Assembly (NCBI GenBank): GCA_009781005.1
Contig: WQYX01000039.1
Coordinates: forward strand, 1 to 36,725
DNA: 36,725 bases
Source: Polyangiaceae bacterium
Lineage (GTDB): Bacteria; Myxococcota_A; Polyangia; Polyangiales; Polyangiaceae
Direction: 5' to 3'
Positions 3,629 through 36,725 of the stretch are shown piece after piece (position 1 is the stretch's first letter; each line of letters begins with the position of its first letter). A model generated the notes under the pieces. That model was not told where the DNA came from. It ran no database searches and saw only the letters and a program-made list of their open reading frames with translations. The translations under genes and the position numbers were made by a program.

Positions 3629-6321
3629 TATCTCTGTCCTCTCTGCGCTACTCCGTCGGCGCCTGACGCGGCAGGGACGGAAAGCCGGAAGTTGGAAACG
3701 CGGGAAGGTGGTGGCGGCTGTGCGGCCGGTCGCTGATACGTGGATTGAATTGTTTGCACGAAGTCCGGCGCAAGCGTTTGGTCTGTTGGCAAGTCGAGCA
3801 GAATCCCGAGTGCGATTCGTCGCGTATAGGGGATGGGTGATTTGCTGTCGACAAGAGCCTGAAACACTTGGTTGCGCATCTCATCGTAGAGTCGAGGGTA
3901 CACAGCCTTAACTGCCTCGACGTGCTCGGGGGTGAGCCCGCCGTGCACGGCTTTGCGTACGATGATGGTGGGATCATCGAGTGCTTCTTTGTACCTTCTG
4001 AATTGCGCAATCTCCGCGTCACTCGCGCGCGTCGCGGGCTGGAATTGCGGCTGCAAAGAGTATGGGTCTTTTTTTGCGCTCGGGAGTTTTGAAGCGAGAA
4101 AGGCGACCCCTCGCATGGCCGTCGCCGTTGCCGCCGTCGTCGTCTTTGGAGCGGCGTCGCTCACGGGGTTTAGCGCTGCGCCAACGCGATCGGAAAGTTG
4201 CTGCGGATTCGCTTGGAGTGCGGATATCCCGCGTTGATCGCGAATGAACTTTTCCGTCTTCACCCCTCCCGCTCTCGCGGCTTCACCTACGGCCTTCGCT
4301 TTGTCTTCCGAGCCGAGGACGCTGTTGACGCTAGATCTCGCGACTTCGTCACCAACCTTTTGCGCGCGCCCTTTGCTCGCGGCGCTGCTGATTAGCTGCG
4401 AGAAAAACCCGCTATCCACGCTCGAAGGAGACGGACTCGGCGACGGCGCTCGAGCAACGCCAACAGCCTCACGCGCGCCGCCGGTGAACTTGCGCATGAC
4501 GCTCTTCGCTTGCTGCTCGAGCATCGCAAGACGTTTCATCGTGGATATTGGGTTGACGGCTAGATCGGTTACGACGCCGACCAGCCCACCAAATTGTCGC
4601 TCATGTTCCTCCGCTTGAAGGCGTCGGATTTGGTTGATCGTCGAGGCCTCCTGCGTTGCCGAGTTGAACGTCTTCTCGAGCGAGTCGAGCGCCGCGCGCT
4701 CGTCTGCAATGGCCTGCGCCCCGCGAGCTCCGTGGTCATAGGCTTGCTCTGTCGCGTCGAGGAAGCGTCGGCGTGTCGAGAGAAAGTCTCGAACGGACTG
4801 CGCGTCGAGGTCCCTCGCTGGCGTCGTCAGCTGGTCGATGAAGCCGTGCACCGCGCCGGTATCGCCGACGAAGTCCGGGCGCCCAGCAGTCGATCCATAT
4901 CGTGTCGTGAACCTGTTTTGAAATCGTTCCCCGAGCGCGATGTTGCTCGTCGTTGCCTCGTTGACGATCCGCTGCGCCTCGCCCGCTTTGCCCCATGCAG
5001 TGTCCTCGAGTGCAGATTGCAACCCCTTCGAGTCTCTGTAGAGTGCATCAAACGTACGCCCTGATTCGGACAGACCAACGGCAGTACGACCAAATTTCGC
5101 CTCTTGTCCGACCCACCTCTTTGTGGTGTCGAGCGCATCAAAAAGCTTGGCGCTGTCACCGGAATCAATCGCATCATTGATTCTCGACACATAACCCGCG
5201 AACCTCTTCGCGCTCTTCTTGGTGAGCCCGGAATTGGCGTCTCCAATCATCGGCTCGACTTCCGCTTGTGCGCGTGAGAGCCAATCTTTTGCAATCAACG
5301 ATTGCTCTTGAAAGTTGGATTTGTCGACCAGGTTCTCGATTTGTTTTAGTTTCGCTTCCCCGAACGTTTCCATTTGGGTGATCGACTGCGCCCGTTGCTG
5401 CTTTGTAATCGACTCCGACAAGTCGCGGGCTTGTTCTGCGAGACGGCGCTCGCGAGCGACGAGAAGGTTCTGGCGGTTCGCCCAGATCTCGCCCAACGTC
5501 GAGGGCGAGGCCTGGTTCGCGAGCTCTTGGCCCGCAGCTTCCTCCGCCATCGTCTTACCGACGTTCGGCGCTGCCTCTCCGAAGGCCTTTTCCGCGACAG
5601 CATCGTAAGCCTCGGCGCTCACCTTGGGCGCTTTCCACGCCCGGTAACCTTCGCCGAGGCCGTGCATCAGACCGCCGGCAATCATGCCGCCGAGAGCTCC
5701 GTGAGAGGCACCGCCGATCAATGCCTCGCCTGTGAGGTCGGTGTCTTTAAGCGCGGACTCGGAGATTGCCTCTCCGGCGCCGTAAAACGATCCCTCGACG
5801 GCGCCACGAGCAAGGGCGCCGCCCGCGCGTGCAAGAGCACCTTCGCCGAGCACCTTTGCGAGCCCGCGCTCCGTGCCGGCGCCGATACGAGAGACCATCG
5901 CCGGAAGCGTGGAGAGTCCCTCTTCGTCTCCCGCAAGCGCGCCACCGAGGACGCCGCCGAGCTCGGAGATGGTCGACGCAATGGGCGCGTAGGACTTCCA
6001 GCGCTCGAGGCCTTCGGACGCGAGCTTCGCCCCTTCATCGCCGCGGAGCGCTCGCGTCAGTTCTACGATCGCCTTGTCGCTCAGCCCCAGCGTAAGGCCT
6101 CGCGCGGCGCCCTCGAGCGACGGCATGATCGCGCCCTCGATAGGATGCTCGGCGAAGTACGCGTCAAGGCGGGCGCGCGCCACGTCCGTGTTGGCTTGCT
6201 GCTGCGCAGCCTGCTGCTCAGCAGGTGTCGCCGCACGCACGCCTTGCCCTTCGCGCGCAATGCCCGCGGGGAGATACCCGACCTTTCCGGTAGCCGTCGT
6301 GACGGGCGTCGGATCTGCCAT
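3628..6321 (-). CDS. Large internal virion (DNA-ejection) protein
   Basis: This 897-aa protein is rich in Ala, Gly, Glu and Gln. Residues about 100-230 hold many Gly/Ala-rich amphipathic stretches (GGVLGGALAG, GASHGALGGMIAGGLMHG) that could insert in membranes, followed by long predicted helices (270-620) and a Pro-rich C-terminus (AAQPPPP). These are features of podoviral internal virion proteins ejected with the DNA to form a trans-envelope channel, such as P22 gp16. I see no transglycosylase or protease motif. It follows two other Ala/Gln-rich genes with stop-start overlap (TGATG), the usual position for the largest ejection protein. The exact role is inferred from composition and gene order. 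Confidence 0.65.
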   Translation of the reverse strand: MADPTPVTTATGKVGYLPAGIAREGQGVRAATPAEQQAAQQQANTDVARARLDAYFAEHPIEGAIMPSLEGAARGLTLGLSDKAIVELTRALRGDEGAKLASEGLERWKSYAPIASTISELGGVLGGALAGDEEGLSTLPAMVSRIGAGTERGLAKVLGEGALARAGGALARGAVEGSFYGAGEAISESALKDTDLTGEALIGGASHGALGGMIAGGLMHGLGEGYRAWKAPKVSAEAYDAVAEKAFGEAAPNVGKTMAEEAAGQELANQASPSTLGEIWANRQNLLVARERRLAEQARDLSESITKQQRAQSITQMETFGEAKLKQIENLVDKSNFQEQSLIAKDWLSRAQAEVEPMIGDANSGLTKKSAKRFAGYVSRINDAIDSGDSAKLFDALDTTKRWVGQEAKFGRTAVGLSESGRTFDALYRDSKGLQSALEDTAWGKAGEAQRIVNEATTSNIALGERFQNRFTTRYGSTAGRPDFVGDTGAVHGFIDQLTTPARDLDAQSVRDFLSTRRRFLDATEQAYDHGARGAQAIADERAALDSLEKTFNSATQEASTINQIRRLQAEEHERQFGGLVGVVTDLAVNPISTMKRLAMLEQQAKSVMRKFTGGAREAVGVARAPSPSPSPSSVDSGFFSQLISSAASKGRAQKVGDEVARSSVNSVLGSEDKAKAVGEAARAGGVKTEKFIRDQRGISALQANPQQLSDRVGAALNPVSDAAPKTTTAATATAMRGVAFLASKLPSAKKDPYSLQPQFQPATRASDAEIAQFRRYKEALDDPTIIVRKAVHGGLTPEHVEAVKAVYPRLYDEMRNQVFQALVDSKSPIPYTRRIALGILLDLPTDQTLAPDFVQTIQSTYQRPAAQPPPPSRVSNFRLSVPAASGADGVAQRGQR

Positions 6322-33768: not shown

Positions 33769-34217
33769 CTGACGATATCCTGCGAGACGGAGATAGGCTG
33801 GACGCGAGAGTCGTCCGCAACCGCGGGCTGCAATACAGCCAACTGAAAGGCACGCCATACATCCTGCTGGAGTTTGAAACGTCGAAGTCTCGGCGCATTA
33901 TTCCTTGCCGGCGTTGGTTGTCTGACGGCGCCATCGAGAACGCGATTCGCACCTTTCAGGCCTGCGGCTGGAAGGGCGAAAACGTCGACGAGCTCGCGAC
34001 CGGCGACCTCTGCGGGATGGATCGCAATGAGGTGTCGGTTACGGTGCGCGTGCAGGAATACCAGGGCAAGGAACAGCCCCCTGAGGTTGGGTTCGTCAAT
34101 CCCATTACGAGCCACGTAGAGATGACGCCGAACGAGTTGAAGAGGTTTGGCGAAAAACATCGTGGCTTGGTGCGGCGTTTACAAAAAGAGATGCCGGACG
34201 ACGAACTGCCTTTCTGA
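33765..34217 (+). CDS. SSB-like single-stranded-DNA-binding protein
   Basis: This 150-aa protein ends in DDELPF, like the DDxIPF/DDDxPF tip of SSB proteins that binds partner enzymes. The preceding part has beta strands (YILLEFETSKSRRIIPCRRWL, EVSVTVRVQEYQGKEQPPEVGFVNP) compatible with an OB fold. It probably coats ssDNA during replication and recombination. The ATG overlaps the ATPase stop (ATGA). The full OB fold is not certain from sequence, but both the C-terminal tip and the position after the ATPase support the call. A conserved small phage protein of other function is the alternative. Confidence 0.65.
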   Translation: MTDDILRDGDRLDARVVRNRGLQYSQLKGTPYILLEFETSKSRRIIPCRRWLSDGAIENAIRTFQACGWKGENVDELATGDLCGMDRNEVSVTVRVQEYQGKEQPPEVGFVNPITSHVEMTPNELKRFGEKHRGLVRRLQKEMPDDELPF

Positions 34218-34238
34218 CTTTTAGCGAAGGAGTCAGTT

Positions 34239-34472
34239 GTGGACAAACGTGCACCCGTGCAGGGAGAACGCTTAGCCGGATTGCTTCACATGGCACCAGG
34301 CACGATCGCTTGGGACGAGCACCTCGAAGTGTGGAATGCATACGCCGCGATGTTCGGTAAGAACCAGAGCGCGGAACGAATAGCTGAGCGTGGAGGATTT
34401 GGGCACTTCGAGGCGACAGCTTTGTTAGGTCGGCCTCTACGAACCTGGATCCAGAGTGCGAATCACGAGTAA
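34239..34472 (+). CDS. Small hypothetical protein
   Basis: This 77-aa protein starts at GTG with AAGGAG at 7 bases (MDKRAPVQGERLAGLLHMAPGTIAWDEHLEVWNAYAAMFG...). It is helical with aromatic residues (ERGGFGHFEATALLGRPLRTW). No family was recognised. It is the last gene before a 139-base non-coding stretch. A short adaptor or regulatory role is possible, but nothing in the sequence proves it. Confidence 0.55.
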   Translation: MDKRAPVQGERLAGLLHMAPGTIAWDEHLEVWNAYAAMFGKNQSAERIAERGGFGHFEATALLGRPLRTWIQSANHE

Positions 34473-34495
34473 ACACGCCAACGCGGCAGCGAATA

Positions 34496-34601
34496 GCGTG
34501 ACAGCCGGGAGAGACCGGCACTTGGGTCGCCAGGTTTGGCACCTGCCTGTTTCAATCCTTTCCGGGTAGGTGGTGGAGTTCGATTCTCCACCGACTCACG
34601 A
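34496..34601 (+). ncRNA. Structured non-coding segment with CRISPR-repeat-like and T-arm-like hairpins
   Basis: Bases 34473-34611 lack a gene, although neighbours are almost gapless. They can fold into three stems: GCCGG-GAGAGA-CCGGC (about 34504-34519), CACCTGCC (34540-34547) with GGTAGGTG (34565-34572; one wobble), and a perfect GGTGGAG-TTCGATT-CTCCACC (34572-34592), like a T-arm. The loop of the second contains GTTTCAATCC (34549-34558), a start shared by many CRISPR repeats. AGTTCGATTCT also occurs in the attachment core. Single copy only; no Cas genes. Function unknown. Confidence 0.35.
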
Positions 34602-34611
34602 GGAGACTGCC

Positions 34612-34926
34612 ATGAAATATCGGTGTTACATCGAAGCCCACGTAGACATTGACGCGAACAGTAAGGGTGAGGCCGAAAGGATGGTGATGCTTGGCCAAGG
34701 AAACGTCGAGGCTGACCTGAGTCAGGATCAGTTCCGGATAGTGTGTCGCGTCAAAGAGAAGATGCGGTCGTACGACGTCGCCGTAGCCGTGAAGGGTTAT
34801 GTTGTCGCGGAAAGTCTAGGTGATGCTGAAAGAAGGTTTTTCTGCGACGTCAAAGCGGCAATCGACTCTCGCGTTCCTTGCGCAGGCATGTCCACAGTGG
34901 AGATTGTGCGATGCGCTGCCAAGTAA
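34612..34926 (+). CDS. Small hypothetical protein
   Basis: This 104-aa protein (MKYRCYIEAHVDIDANSKGEAER...) has two halves of similar layout: a beta strand, then ANSKGEAERMV, and later a strand followed by AESLGDAERRFFCDV. This suggests a duplicated alpha/beta unit. No named family was recognised. The ATG follows GAGGAG at 7 bases. It overlaps the next gene by 16 bases. Function unknown. Confidence 0.6.
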   Translation: MKYRCYIEAHVDIDANSKGEAERMVMLGQGNVEADLSQDQFRIVCRVKEKMRSYDVAVAVKGYVVAESLGDAERRFFCDVKAAIDSRVPCAGMSTVEIVRCAAK

Positions 34927-35213
34927 GGAGCGGACCCAAGCAATGTGACCATGAGCAGGGCCACGAAGGAGAGCATGAGTGCGCGTCCAATTCCGTGGCC
35001 GATCCTCTTCCTCCGTCGAGCGATATTGTGCTGCTCCGGAAGCAACTGCTCCGGAGCGCAGAAACGTTGCATACCATCTTCAGGCGAGCCGACTATTGGA
35101 GAGAAGGGAGGAGCATAAAAGAGACGGAATCGGAGCTCCGCTACATAGCTCAGATTGCTGAGGCGGAATTCAGCAAAATCAAGAAGCTCTTCAACGATGG
35201 GTTGAAGCCGTGA
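34911..35213 (+). CDS. Small Cys/His protein with C-terminal helices
   Basis: This 100-aa protein begins MRCQVRSGPKQCDHEQGHEGEHECASN, a Cys/His set (CQ...C-H...GHEG-H-C) likely to bind zinc, followed by helices (DIVLLRKQLLRSAETLHTIFRRADYWREGRSIKETESEL). No ribosome site is evident; the start lies inside the preceding gene, so coupling is likely. The C-terminal helices may form a coiled coil. Its stop overlaps the next GTG. Function unknown. Confidence 0.55.
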   Translation: MRCQVRSGPKQCDHEQGHEGEHECASNSVADPLPPSSDIVLLRKQLLRSAETLHTIFRRADYWREGRSIKETESELRYIAQIAEAEFSKIKKLFNDGLKP

Positions 35214-35463: not shown

Positions 35464-35835
35464 ATGACTCGTTATCTCCGCGCGAAAGACATCGCCGAGG
35501 ACCTCGGCGTTTCACTCGCGAGCGCATATCGCATCATGCGCGAGTGCACGCGACTGGTGGCCGGCAAGTCTGTGCGCGTGACCCATCAAGCATTTCACGC
35601 CTGGAAAGAGAGACACACGGAGGGCCCGTGCGAGACACCCTTTATTTGCGTGGCCGGATCTGGTGGTGCCTCGTCACCAACCCGAAAGGGGGTAGGAGCC
35701 TCCGCAGATCGACCCGCTGCCATGACCGAGTCGCTGCCCGCAAGCGGTGGCTCGAGCTCGAGCGCGCTGTCATCACGCAGGCCGATCGTCCCCCGGACTC
35801 GCCCACGCTTGCCTTCGTCCTCGACTGGCGCCTAA
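35464..35835 (+). CDS. Excisionase-like HTH protein; C-terminal part doubtful
   Basis: Translation gives 123 aa. Residues 1-50 (MTRYLRAKDIAEDLGVSLASAYRIM...) form a winged helix-turn-helix typical of excisionase/AlpA-like DNA-binding proteins. Residues 55-123 are Ser/Pro/Arg-rich low-complexity sequence that lies over the integrase start in another frame and may be an accidental readthrough, although no earlier stop exists in this frame. It lies between the XRE gene and integrase, standard for a recombination directionality factor. No ribosome site is seen; coupling to the preceding gene, two bases away, is likely. Confidence 0.6.
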   Translation: MTRYLRAKDIAEDLGVSLASAYRIMRECTRLVAGKSVRVTHQAFHAWKERHTEGPCETPFICVAGSGGASSPTRKGVGASADRPAAMTESLPASGGSSSSALSSRRPIVPRTRPRLPSSSTGA

Positions 35836-36686
35836 GCGAGCGCGAGACGGCCGGAAAGAAGCCGGGCACGCTCAGCATGTACGGACAGAAAGGGAGACAC
35901 CTCGTGCGCCTCCTTGGCGCCGATACGCTGCTCTCGGACATCGGCGCGCAGCAGATCGACCAGTTCGCTGCCGAGCGGCTGAAGGAGGGTGCCGCCAGAA
36001 CGACGGTCCACAAAGAGCTCGTCACGCTGAGGGGCGCGTTGAAACTCGCGCGCCGCTACCGGCAGTATCCCTACGCGCTCGACGAGGTGATGCCCGAGTT
36101 TGCGATCGAGTATGTGCCGAAGGAGCGCGCGCTGCCGCTGCACGAGATCGCGCTGTTGCTCGGGACACTGCCGGCCAAGCGCTCGGCGCTGGTCGGCTTG
36201 CTCATTGCGACGGCGGCCACGTACCCGAGCGAGATCGATCGGCTGCGCAAGACCGACATTGACCTCGTCGCGGGCTACGTCAGGCTGCGAGGGACAAAGC
36301 GCACGACGCGAGATCGCCGCGTGCCCATCGTGGACTTCGCACGCCCATGGGTTGAGCGCGCGGTGGCTTATATGCCGTTCGAGAGGTGGACCAACGTGAG
36401 GCGAGATCTGCATGTCGCCTGCAAGCGGGTCGAGATCGAAGCGTGCTCGCCGAACGACTTACGCCGCACGATGTTGACCCTCCTGCGAGCTCACGGCGTG
36501 GAGCCGTCGTTGCTCGCGGTGTTCGCTGGCCATGCCGACTCCCGGATGGTCGAGAGGGTCTACGGACGCCTCGCGCCCGAGCAGCTCGCGAAACTGCTCG
36601 AGCAAAGACTCGCGTTCACAACCAGTGCACAGAGAGCAAAAAAGATGGTAAAAACATCGAGAAAACGAACGAATGCAGCGGACTGA
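35628..36686 (+). CDS. int: Tyrosine integrase, catalytic set atypical
   Basis: This 352-aa protein begins with an arm-binding-like domain (LYLRGRIWWCLVTNPK...AARKRW), then a core-binding helical domain (about 58-150) and the catalytic domain. There K224, R279 (NDLRRT), H302 (GHADSRM) and nucleophile Y312 are recognisable. The first Arg is replaced by Y199 in ATYPSEI and the usual His before R279 is N276. It should carry out site-specific recombination at tRNA-Phe. I chose GTG at 35628 because GGAGGG lies upstream and the domain starts here. The last codons and stop are inside attR. Confidence 0.85.
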   Translation: MRDTLYLRGRIWWCLVTNPKGGRSLRRSTRCHDRVAARKRWLELERAVITQADRPPDSPTLAFVLDWRLSERETAGKKPGTLSMYGQKGRHLVRLLGADTLLSDIGAQQIDQFAAERLKEGAARTTVHKELVTLRGALKLARRYRQYPYALDEVMPEFAIEYVPKERALPLHEIALLLGTLPAKRSALVGLLIATAATYPSEIDRLRKTDIDLVAGYVRLRGTKRTTRDRRVPIVDFARPWVERAVAYMPFERWTNVRRDLHVACKRVEIEACSPNDLRRTMLTLLRAHGVEPSLLAVFAGHADSRMVERVYGRLAPEQLAKLLEQRLAFTTSAQRAKKMVKTSRKRTNAAD

Positions 36687-36725
36687 AAATCCGCGTGTCG
36701 ACAGTTCGATTCTGTCCCTGGGCAC
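36675..36725 (+). repeat. attR: attR, 51-bp attachment core
   Basis: This is an exact copy of bases 1-51. It overlaps the end of the integrase gene, giving the final codons GCA GCG GAC and the stop TGA. The 5' part of the tRNA is replaced by phage DNA here, so this copy is not a functional tRNA. Chromosomal DNA should continue at the next base. Confidence 0.95.

Follow-up and report, generated by a model that had tools for sequence, protein, structure and literature searches.

Phages are already known to carry cis-acting structured RNAs. The RNase III processing sites of T7 are hairpins placed between the genes of a long phage transcript, with long stems and no fixed loop, and the boxB hairpin of lambda, in the early operon, combines a 5-bp stem with a purine-rich, GNRA-like loop. 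We describe here an element that joins this kind of RNA, which we refer to as the GARAGA element, and a tRNA-like RNA that follows it in the early operon of a prophage. Like the T7 sites, the element forms intergenic hairpins, but its stems are of 5 bp and its loop and linker are fixed. With boxB it shares the 5-bp stem and the purine-rich loop; in contrast to boxB, it has a hexaloop, a freely varying stem, an upstream hairpin in place of boxA, and a spread over hosts of several phyla. The downstream RNA has the T-arm, the acceptor-like stem and the length of a tRNA (RF00005), but its middle arm is of 9 bp with a 13-nt loop and it falls below the thresholds of Rfam and ARAGORN.

The likeness to the put RNA of HK022 is that of a cis-acting phage RNA with two stem-loops in an early operon. 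The GARAGA element differs in being found also in tRNA clusters and after head genes. In the available text of its description (PMC9378689), put is an RNA of about 70 nt with a triplex and with stems unlike those of the element. A single family comprising both was considered and rejected: going by that text, sequence and structure are unlike, and in a one-way search of our model R1 against HK022 the HK022 stretch (L133) gave no R1 match, nor was a GARAGA-type hairpin of note seen there. Searches of the openly available literature on structured phage RNAs, on phage tRNA-like, tRNA-cluster and motif RNAs, and on put and antitermination turned up no description of the element, which is apparently uncatalogued. 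The candidate list of a human-microbiome survey of structured RNAs (PMC8040213) could contain it.

The gap, its prophage and a tRNA-like RNA

The window, by which we mean the whole stretch of DNA analysed (36,725 nt), carries the identical 3' part of a tRNA gene at both ends (1-51 and 36675-36725), with an Rfam tRNA match at 1-50; the loop CTGAAAA indicates that this is probably tRNA-Phe. These repeats are the attachment-site repeats of an integrated prophage. The features discussed below are as follows.

34239-34472, + strand: 5' ORF, 77 aa, without PHROG match
34473-34611, + strand: gap between two co-directional ORFs (ORF list)
34480-34519, + strand: GARAGA element, two hairpins (match to model R1)
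34481-34499, + strand: stem 1, A34481-C34484 with G34496-T34499, followed by G34500
34501-34503, + strand: linker ACA
34504-34519, + strand: hairpin 2, GCCGG-GAGAGA-CCGGC, the most conserved part
34524-34598, + strand: tRNA-like cloverleaf (predicted fold), beginning 4 nt 3' of hairpin 2
34524-34528 with 34593-34597, + strand: acceptor-like stem GGGUC/GACUC, 6/7 pairs in the tRNA register
34529-34540, + strand: D-arm-like hairpin
34541-34571, + strand: middle arm, 9 bp with a 13-nt loop, in the place of the anticodon arm
34549-34558, + strand: GTTTCAATCC, mostly within the 5' part of the middle-arm loop
34572-34592, + strand: T-arm GGTGGAG(TTCGATT)CTCCACC, loop UUCGAUU canonical
34598, + strand: A in the discriminator place
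34612-34926, + strand: 3' ORF, 104 aa, without PHROG match
35544-36686: integrase

The earlier note on this DNA had called the gap the sole long one of the early operon and had seen several stems in it, and both observations hold. As read off the ORF list, nothing else longer than about 80 nt interrupts the plus-strand gene row from 30297 to the integrase, and the predicted folding energy of the gap is -59.5 kcal/mol, where its shuffles average -48.2 ± 3.7 (n = 200; z -3.08) and none did as well. No promoter-like site was found in 34200-34950; the one terminator-like site in that range lies on the minus strand. What had been passed over is the feature that proved to be conserved, the first GC-rich hairpin of the gap (34504-34519).

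The minimum-energy fold of the tRNA-like RNA is a cloverleaf-like junction, and the piece 34524-34602 reaches a z of -3.65, with none of 200 shuffles as good. A frame made of an acceptor with 6/7 pairs and a 5-bp T-arm with a TTCRANN loop is found a single time in the window (34579); of 20,000 dinucleotide shuffles of the gap, 15 contain it. The earlier interpretation, a tRNA-like RNA or a CRISPR repeat, is supported in its first half: the perfect T-arm-like hairpin is present, with a canonical T-loop and an acceptor-like stem beside it in a cloverleaf-like fold. Its second half is not supported, as set out below. The RNA is not a canonical tRNA, given that neither ARAGORN nor Rfam calls one and that the middle arm, in the predicted fold, offers no usable anticodon. 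An origin from a host tRNA was considered and rejected: when the RNA was aligned locally with 30 of the 36 tRNA loci of the host, it gave short, chance-like matches only. A search for prophage relatives through two early proteins returned the window alone, and one of these two was found in 1 of 108 family genomes, namely its own. Directly 3' of the tRNA-like RNA, before the ORF at 34612-34926, lies a GAGGAG stretch that is a possible ribosome-binding site.

Sequence, structure and spread of the GARAGA element

The consensus of the element reads AAC-NNN...NNN-GU-G-ACD-GNNNG-GARAGA-CNNNC. The copy in the window has the two hairpins, the G-ACD linker and the GARAGA loop, and scores 47.4 bits (E 3.7e-12; match 34478-34525) with model R1, from whose 48 seed rows it is absent. 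Evidence for the stem comes from search patterns in which its bases were left free. With three free bases on each side, the first not C, 101 of the 102 distinct copies among the matches listed were fully complementary, in 25 combinations. When the linker base and three loop bases were freed as well, the matches listed held 85 new copies, 54 of them fully paired where 4.5 were expected; among these matches the loop was GAAAGA or GAGAGA in all 54 paired copies, and the linker was ACA in 38, ACG in 10, ACT in 5 and ACC in 1. A pattern with a free 3' end gave 74 paired copies out of 78 among the matches listed. The apparent conservation of an AC 3' of the hairpin was an effect of the search pattern, for the first base, once left free, was A in just 46 of those 74.

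The upstream hairpin, AAC-NNN...NNN-GU, was present in 162 of 219 copies against a shuffled mean of 101, and in 107 against 30 in shuffled controls when the preceding A was required. In 48 aligned rows all 471 cells pair and 6 of the 10 pairs carry double changes, which is supportive only, the rows having been picked for paired stems. As far as comparison of sequences goes, these patterns show the element to be a structured RNA common to phages of many bacterial phyla. Rfam 15 returned no match to it in the whole window, the gap, 13 loci at the gathering threshold, or two array stretches, the gap and the array stretches having been searched with permissive limits; the hits obtained were to tRNAs at other places, plus a single CRISPR match at chance level, and the array stretches gave none.

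A BLAST search with the gap as query gave 30 phage records; most of the 20 listed match only the first GC-rich hairpin and belong to unrelated phages. A shorter query gave 33 phage records. The exact 21-mer ACAGCCGGGAGAGACCGGCAC occurs in at least 120 viral-contig stretches. Among 84,980 species genomes, an exact 24-mer was found in 32 stretches, whose record titles name Alpha-, Beta-, Gamma- and Deltaproteobacteria, Anaerolineae, Planctomycetes, Cyanobacteria, Clostridiales, Spirochaetes and Bryobacterales. Nine of these stretches were probed through ten of their proteins: clear matches of phage type came from four (terminase, exonuclease VIII, anti-repressor, DnaB-like helicase), a match to a DNA methyltransferase from a fifth, and weak matches or none from the rest. 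The element was present in 2 of 377 genomes of the host phylum, its own counted, in 1 of 5,426 genomes of E. coli, and in 8 of 72,556 plasmid records at E <= 10, some of these by chance. Its carriers would be phages or prophage-bearing genomes. Most copies came in through exact patterns, and some counts retain near-identical phages. Two of the plasmids, from Acinetobacter and Pantoea and of one replicon cluster (L505, L506), have the element in a gap of about 1.75 kb for which the plasmid gene table, itself incomplete, lists no genes, and at the same place in each ARAGORN calls a tRNA-Stop (tta).

Genomic setting of the copies

Copies were placed relative to genes with a codon-scored caller, a first, crude caller having been discarded after it put 154 of 247 copies inside shadow ORFs. 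The codon-scored caller left 179 of 232 copies examined, the 53 inside ORF calls being dropped. Both neighbours lie on the strand of the element in 120 of the 179, on the opposite strand in 14, and in 45 the arrangement is mixed or open. Gaps that contain the element have a median length of 496 nt (n = 179) against 36 nt for all gaps, and the strand majority within 3 kb is sense for 143 copies, mixed for 49 and antisense for 35. No place within the gap is preferred: among the 120 co-directional copies, 36 are about 40 nt or less from the upstream stop. A strong copy in Rhodobacter phage RcCWillis (L132, 2984-3030; 47.6 bits) is antisense to all its annotated neighbours and sits beside a tyrosine integrase.

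With the window excluded, an ARAGORN tRNA starts within 10 nt downstream of 13 of 250 copies, compared with 0.11% of 20,000 random positions, and within 50 nt downstream of 20 of 250, compared with 0.33%; none of the 250 copies has an ARAGORN tRNA ending within 50 nt upstream. For 20 of 248 copies, a count that takes in the window and some near-identical pairs, the cloverleaf frame starts no more than 24 nt from the hairpin, as against 17 of 5,760 random spots; 16 of the 20 have it at a distance of 3-8 nt. Some of these downstream cloverleaves are ordinary tRNAs (Glu, Gly and Asn by ARAGORN), and others have aberrant middle arms resembling that in the window. At the level of sequence, then, the element is shown to sit in untranslated gaps, with a tRNA or tRNA-like structure beginning 2-15 nt downstream of part of its copies. 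Odd cloverleaves stand directly 3' of the element in nine further loci (L018, L030, L039, L081, L093, L188, L199, L224, L260). The middle arms in this set are long or odd, and for some of its members ARAGORN gives anticodons of 2 or 4 bases or, in two cases, an implausible Asp call.

In single phages the settings vary. The element is found inside annotated tRNA clusters, or immediately ahead of them, in Phaeobacter phage MD18, Microcystis phage Mwe-JY26 and Stenotrophomonas phage Pokken, and mEp390, Medea1 and BUCT708 carry it in the leader, untranslated, of their left early operon. At two loci (L163, L221) the linker follows the stop of the major head gene by 30 and 59 nt, and at a third (L012) a called head gene ends 391 nt before the element, with a head-tail adaptor beginning 27 nt after it. 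Same-strand series of two to four copies, mostly spaced by 70-260 nt and flanking non-coding units, were seen at about 20 loci, and the final copy of such a series is often immediately 5' of an ORF.

Further features were seen beside the element. An RNA body with GAACTCGGCCAGAGTGTG recurs between two copies (L205, L085, L188, L016), and in L205 and L085 it matched no Rfam family. Downstream of the element, three Anaerolineae loci (L261, L262, L272) have in common another stretch that looks structured, GGTGGGTGCAA..CCCACCCGG. On one viral contig (L207) a tmRNA gene at 3869-4216 precedes a copy by about 75 nt.

Proposed RNA punctuation and other readings

We tentatively suggest, while granting that the case falls somewhat short of even, that the element serves as RNA punctuation for the untranslated RNAs of phage operons, through processing or insulation, and that the gap studied here is a minimal phage non-coding RNA island within a long early operon, made of a GARAGA element and then a tRNA-like RNA. 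The free stems, the fixed loop and linker, and the many phyla of the hosts suggest that the loop is recognised by a partner common to these hosts, or that the RNA acts by itself; a role in processing or insulation is suggested by the repetition of the element between units. A widely conserved host factor may recognise the folded element, chiefly through the GARAGA loop and the ACA linker, and the element would then mark, insulate or help to release the untranslated units of an operon, whether tRNAs, tRNA-like RNAs or others. In the window it would mark where the untranslated stretch begins. The fold of the tRNA-like RNA suggests that RNase P could cut its 5' side and the tRNA end-processing enzymes its 3' side, a trimming that would part the upstream message from the downstream one.

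Several observations count against punctuation. About 92% of the copies have no tRNA within 50 nt, 14 of 179 copies have two antisense neighbours, the position of the element in its gap shows no preference, and no relatives of the tRNA-like RNA were found. Moreover, RNase P cuts the 5' side of a tRNA unaided, which makes an additional cleavage signal there superfluous.

A more ambitious form of this proposal would make GARAGA a new class of autonomous phage RNA punctuation across phyla, either self-cleaving or the target, for cutting or binding, of a universally conserved host factor, and one that delimits cassettes of tRNAs, tRNA-like RNAs and small RNAs; the tRNA-like RNAs would be products in themselves, for instance decoys for defences that attack tRNAs. 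We consider this extended form unlikely. A constant loop with free stems across Proteobacteria, Cyanobacteria, Planctomycetes, Chloroflexi, Clostridia and others points to a partner present in all these hosts or to action by the RNA alone. The element may in any case offer a handle for locating the untranslated RNA islands of phages, including tRNA-like RNAs that standard tools miss.

It is also conceivable, if somewhat improbable, that the cloverleaf is a decayed and functionless phage tRNA and that the element alone matters. The lack of an ARAGORN or Rfam call and of a usable anticodon would be expected of such a relic, but the strength of the fold and the intact T-arm speak against decay, as do the odd cloverleaves that follow the element in other phages.

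The main rival to punctuation is that the element is a cis-acting antitermination signal comparable to nut, put or the rRNA leader, with which polymerase crosses untranslated stretches in spite of Rho-dependent or intrinsic termination. Placement in untranslated stretches, the copies in the left early leaders of mEp390, Medea1 and BUCT708, and the two-hairpin plan shared with put of HK022 all agree with it. A processive signal, however, needs neither tandem copies 70-260 nt apart nor copies just before ORFs, the start of the gap is not clearly preferred, and the early region of HK022 lacks a sequence match. Punctuation is put before antitermination on account of the tandem copies, the sites after head genes and in tRNA clusters, and the absence of a preferred position in the gap, and we regard antitermination as an unlikely explanation.

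We give rather less credit to the idea that the element works as a hairpin for a phage-specific factor, in protein binding or in regulation, and that the arrays are regulatory small RNAs, not processed units. Recurrent RNA bodies of no known family do stand beside the element, and its loop could be recognised as the loops of boxB hairpins are; yet no shared neighbouring protein was noticed in the loci viewed, a non-systematic comparison, and the hosts are too diverse for any single known phage factor. That the element is a small self-cleaving ribozyme separating RNA units is very unlikely. Action by the RNA alone would account for the spread over hosts of many phyla, and fixed unpaired bases with freely varying stems would suit a ribozyme, but two short hairpins show no evident third helix or pseudoknot, and no Rfam family matches, those of ribozymes included.

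The solitary CRISPR repeat or anti-CRISPR RNA that the earlier note had proposed from GTTTCAATCC in the loop is refuted for the present host as far as Cas1 and five genomic sites were tested: no Cas1 match was found in the host assembly (completeness listed as 100), while 9 of 14 control genomes were positive, the five of eight host GTTTCAATCC sites inspected lie in no repeat array and show no 18-mers repeated at 50-89 nt, and the best Rfam CRISPR match to the gap, CRISPR-DR9 on the minus strand, is at chance level (13.4 bits against a cut-off of 45, E 4.4). The motif itself is in the loop as described, in a window whose shuffles average 0.07 copies (7 of 100 have one), and its eight occurrences in the host genome, against one for a reversed control pattern, are scattered.
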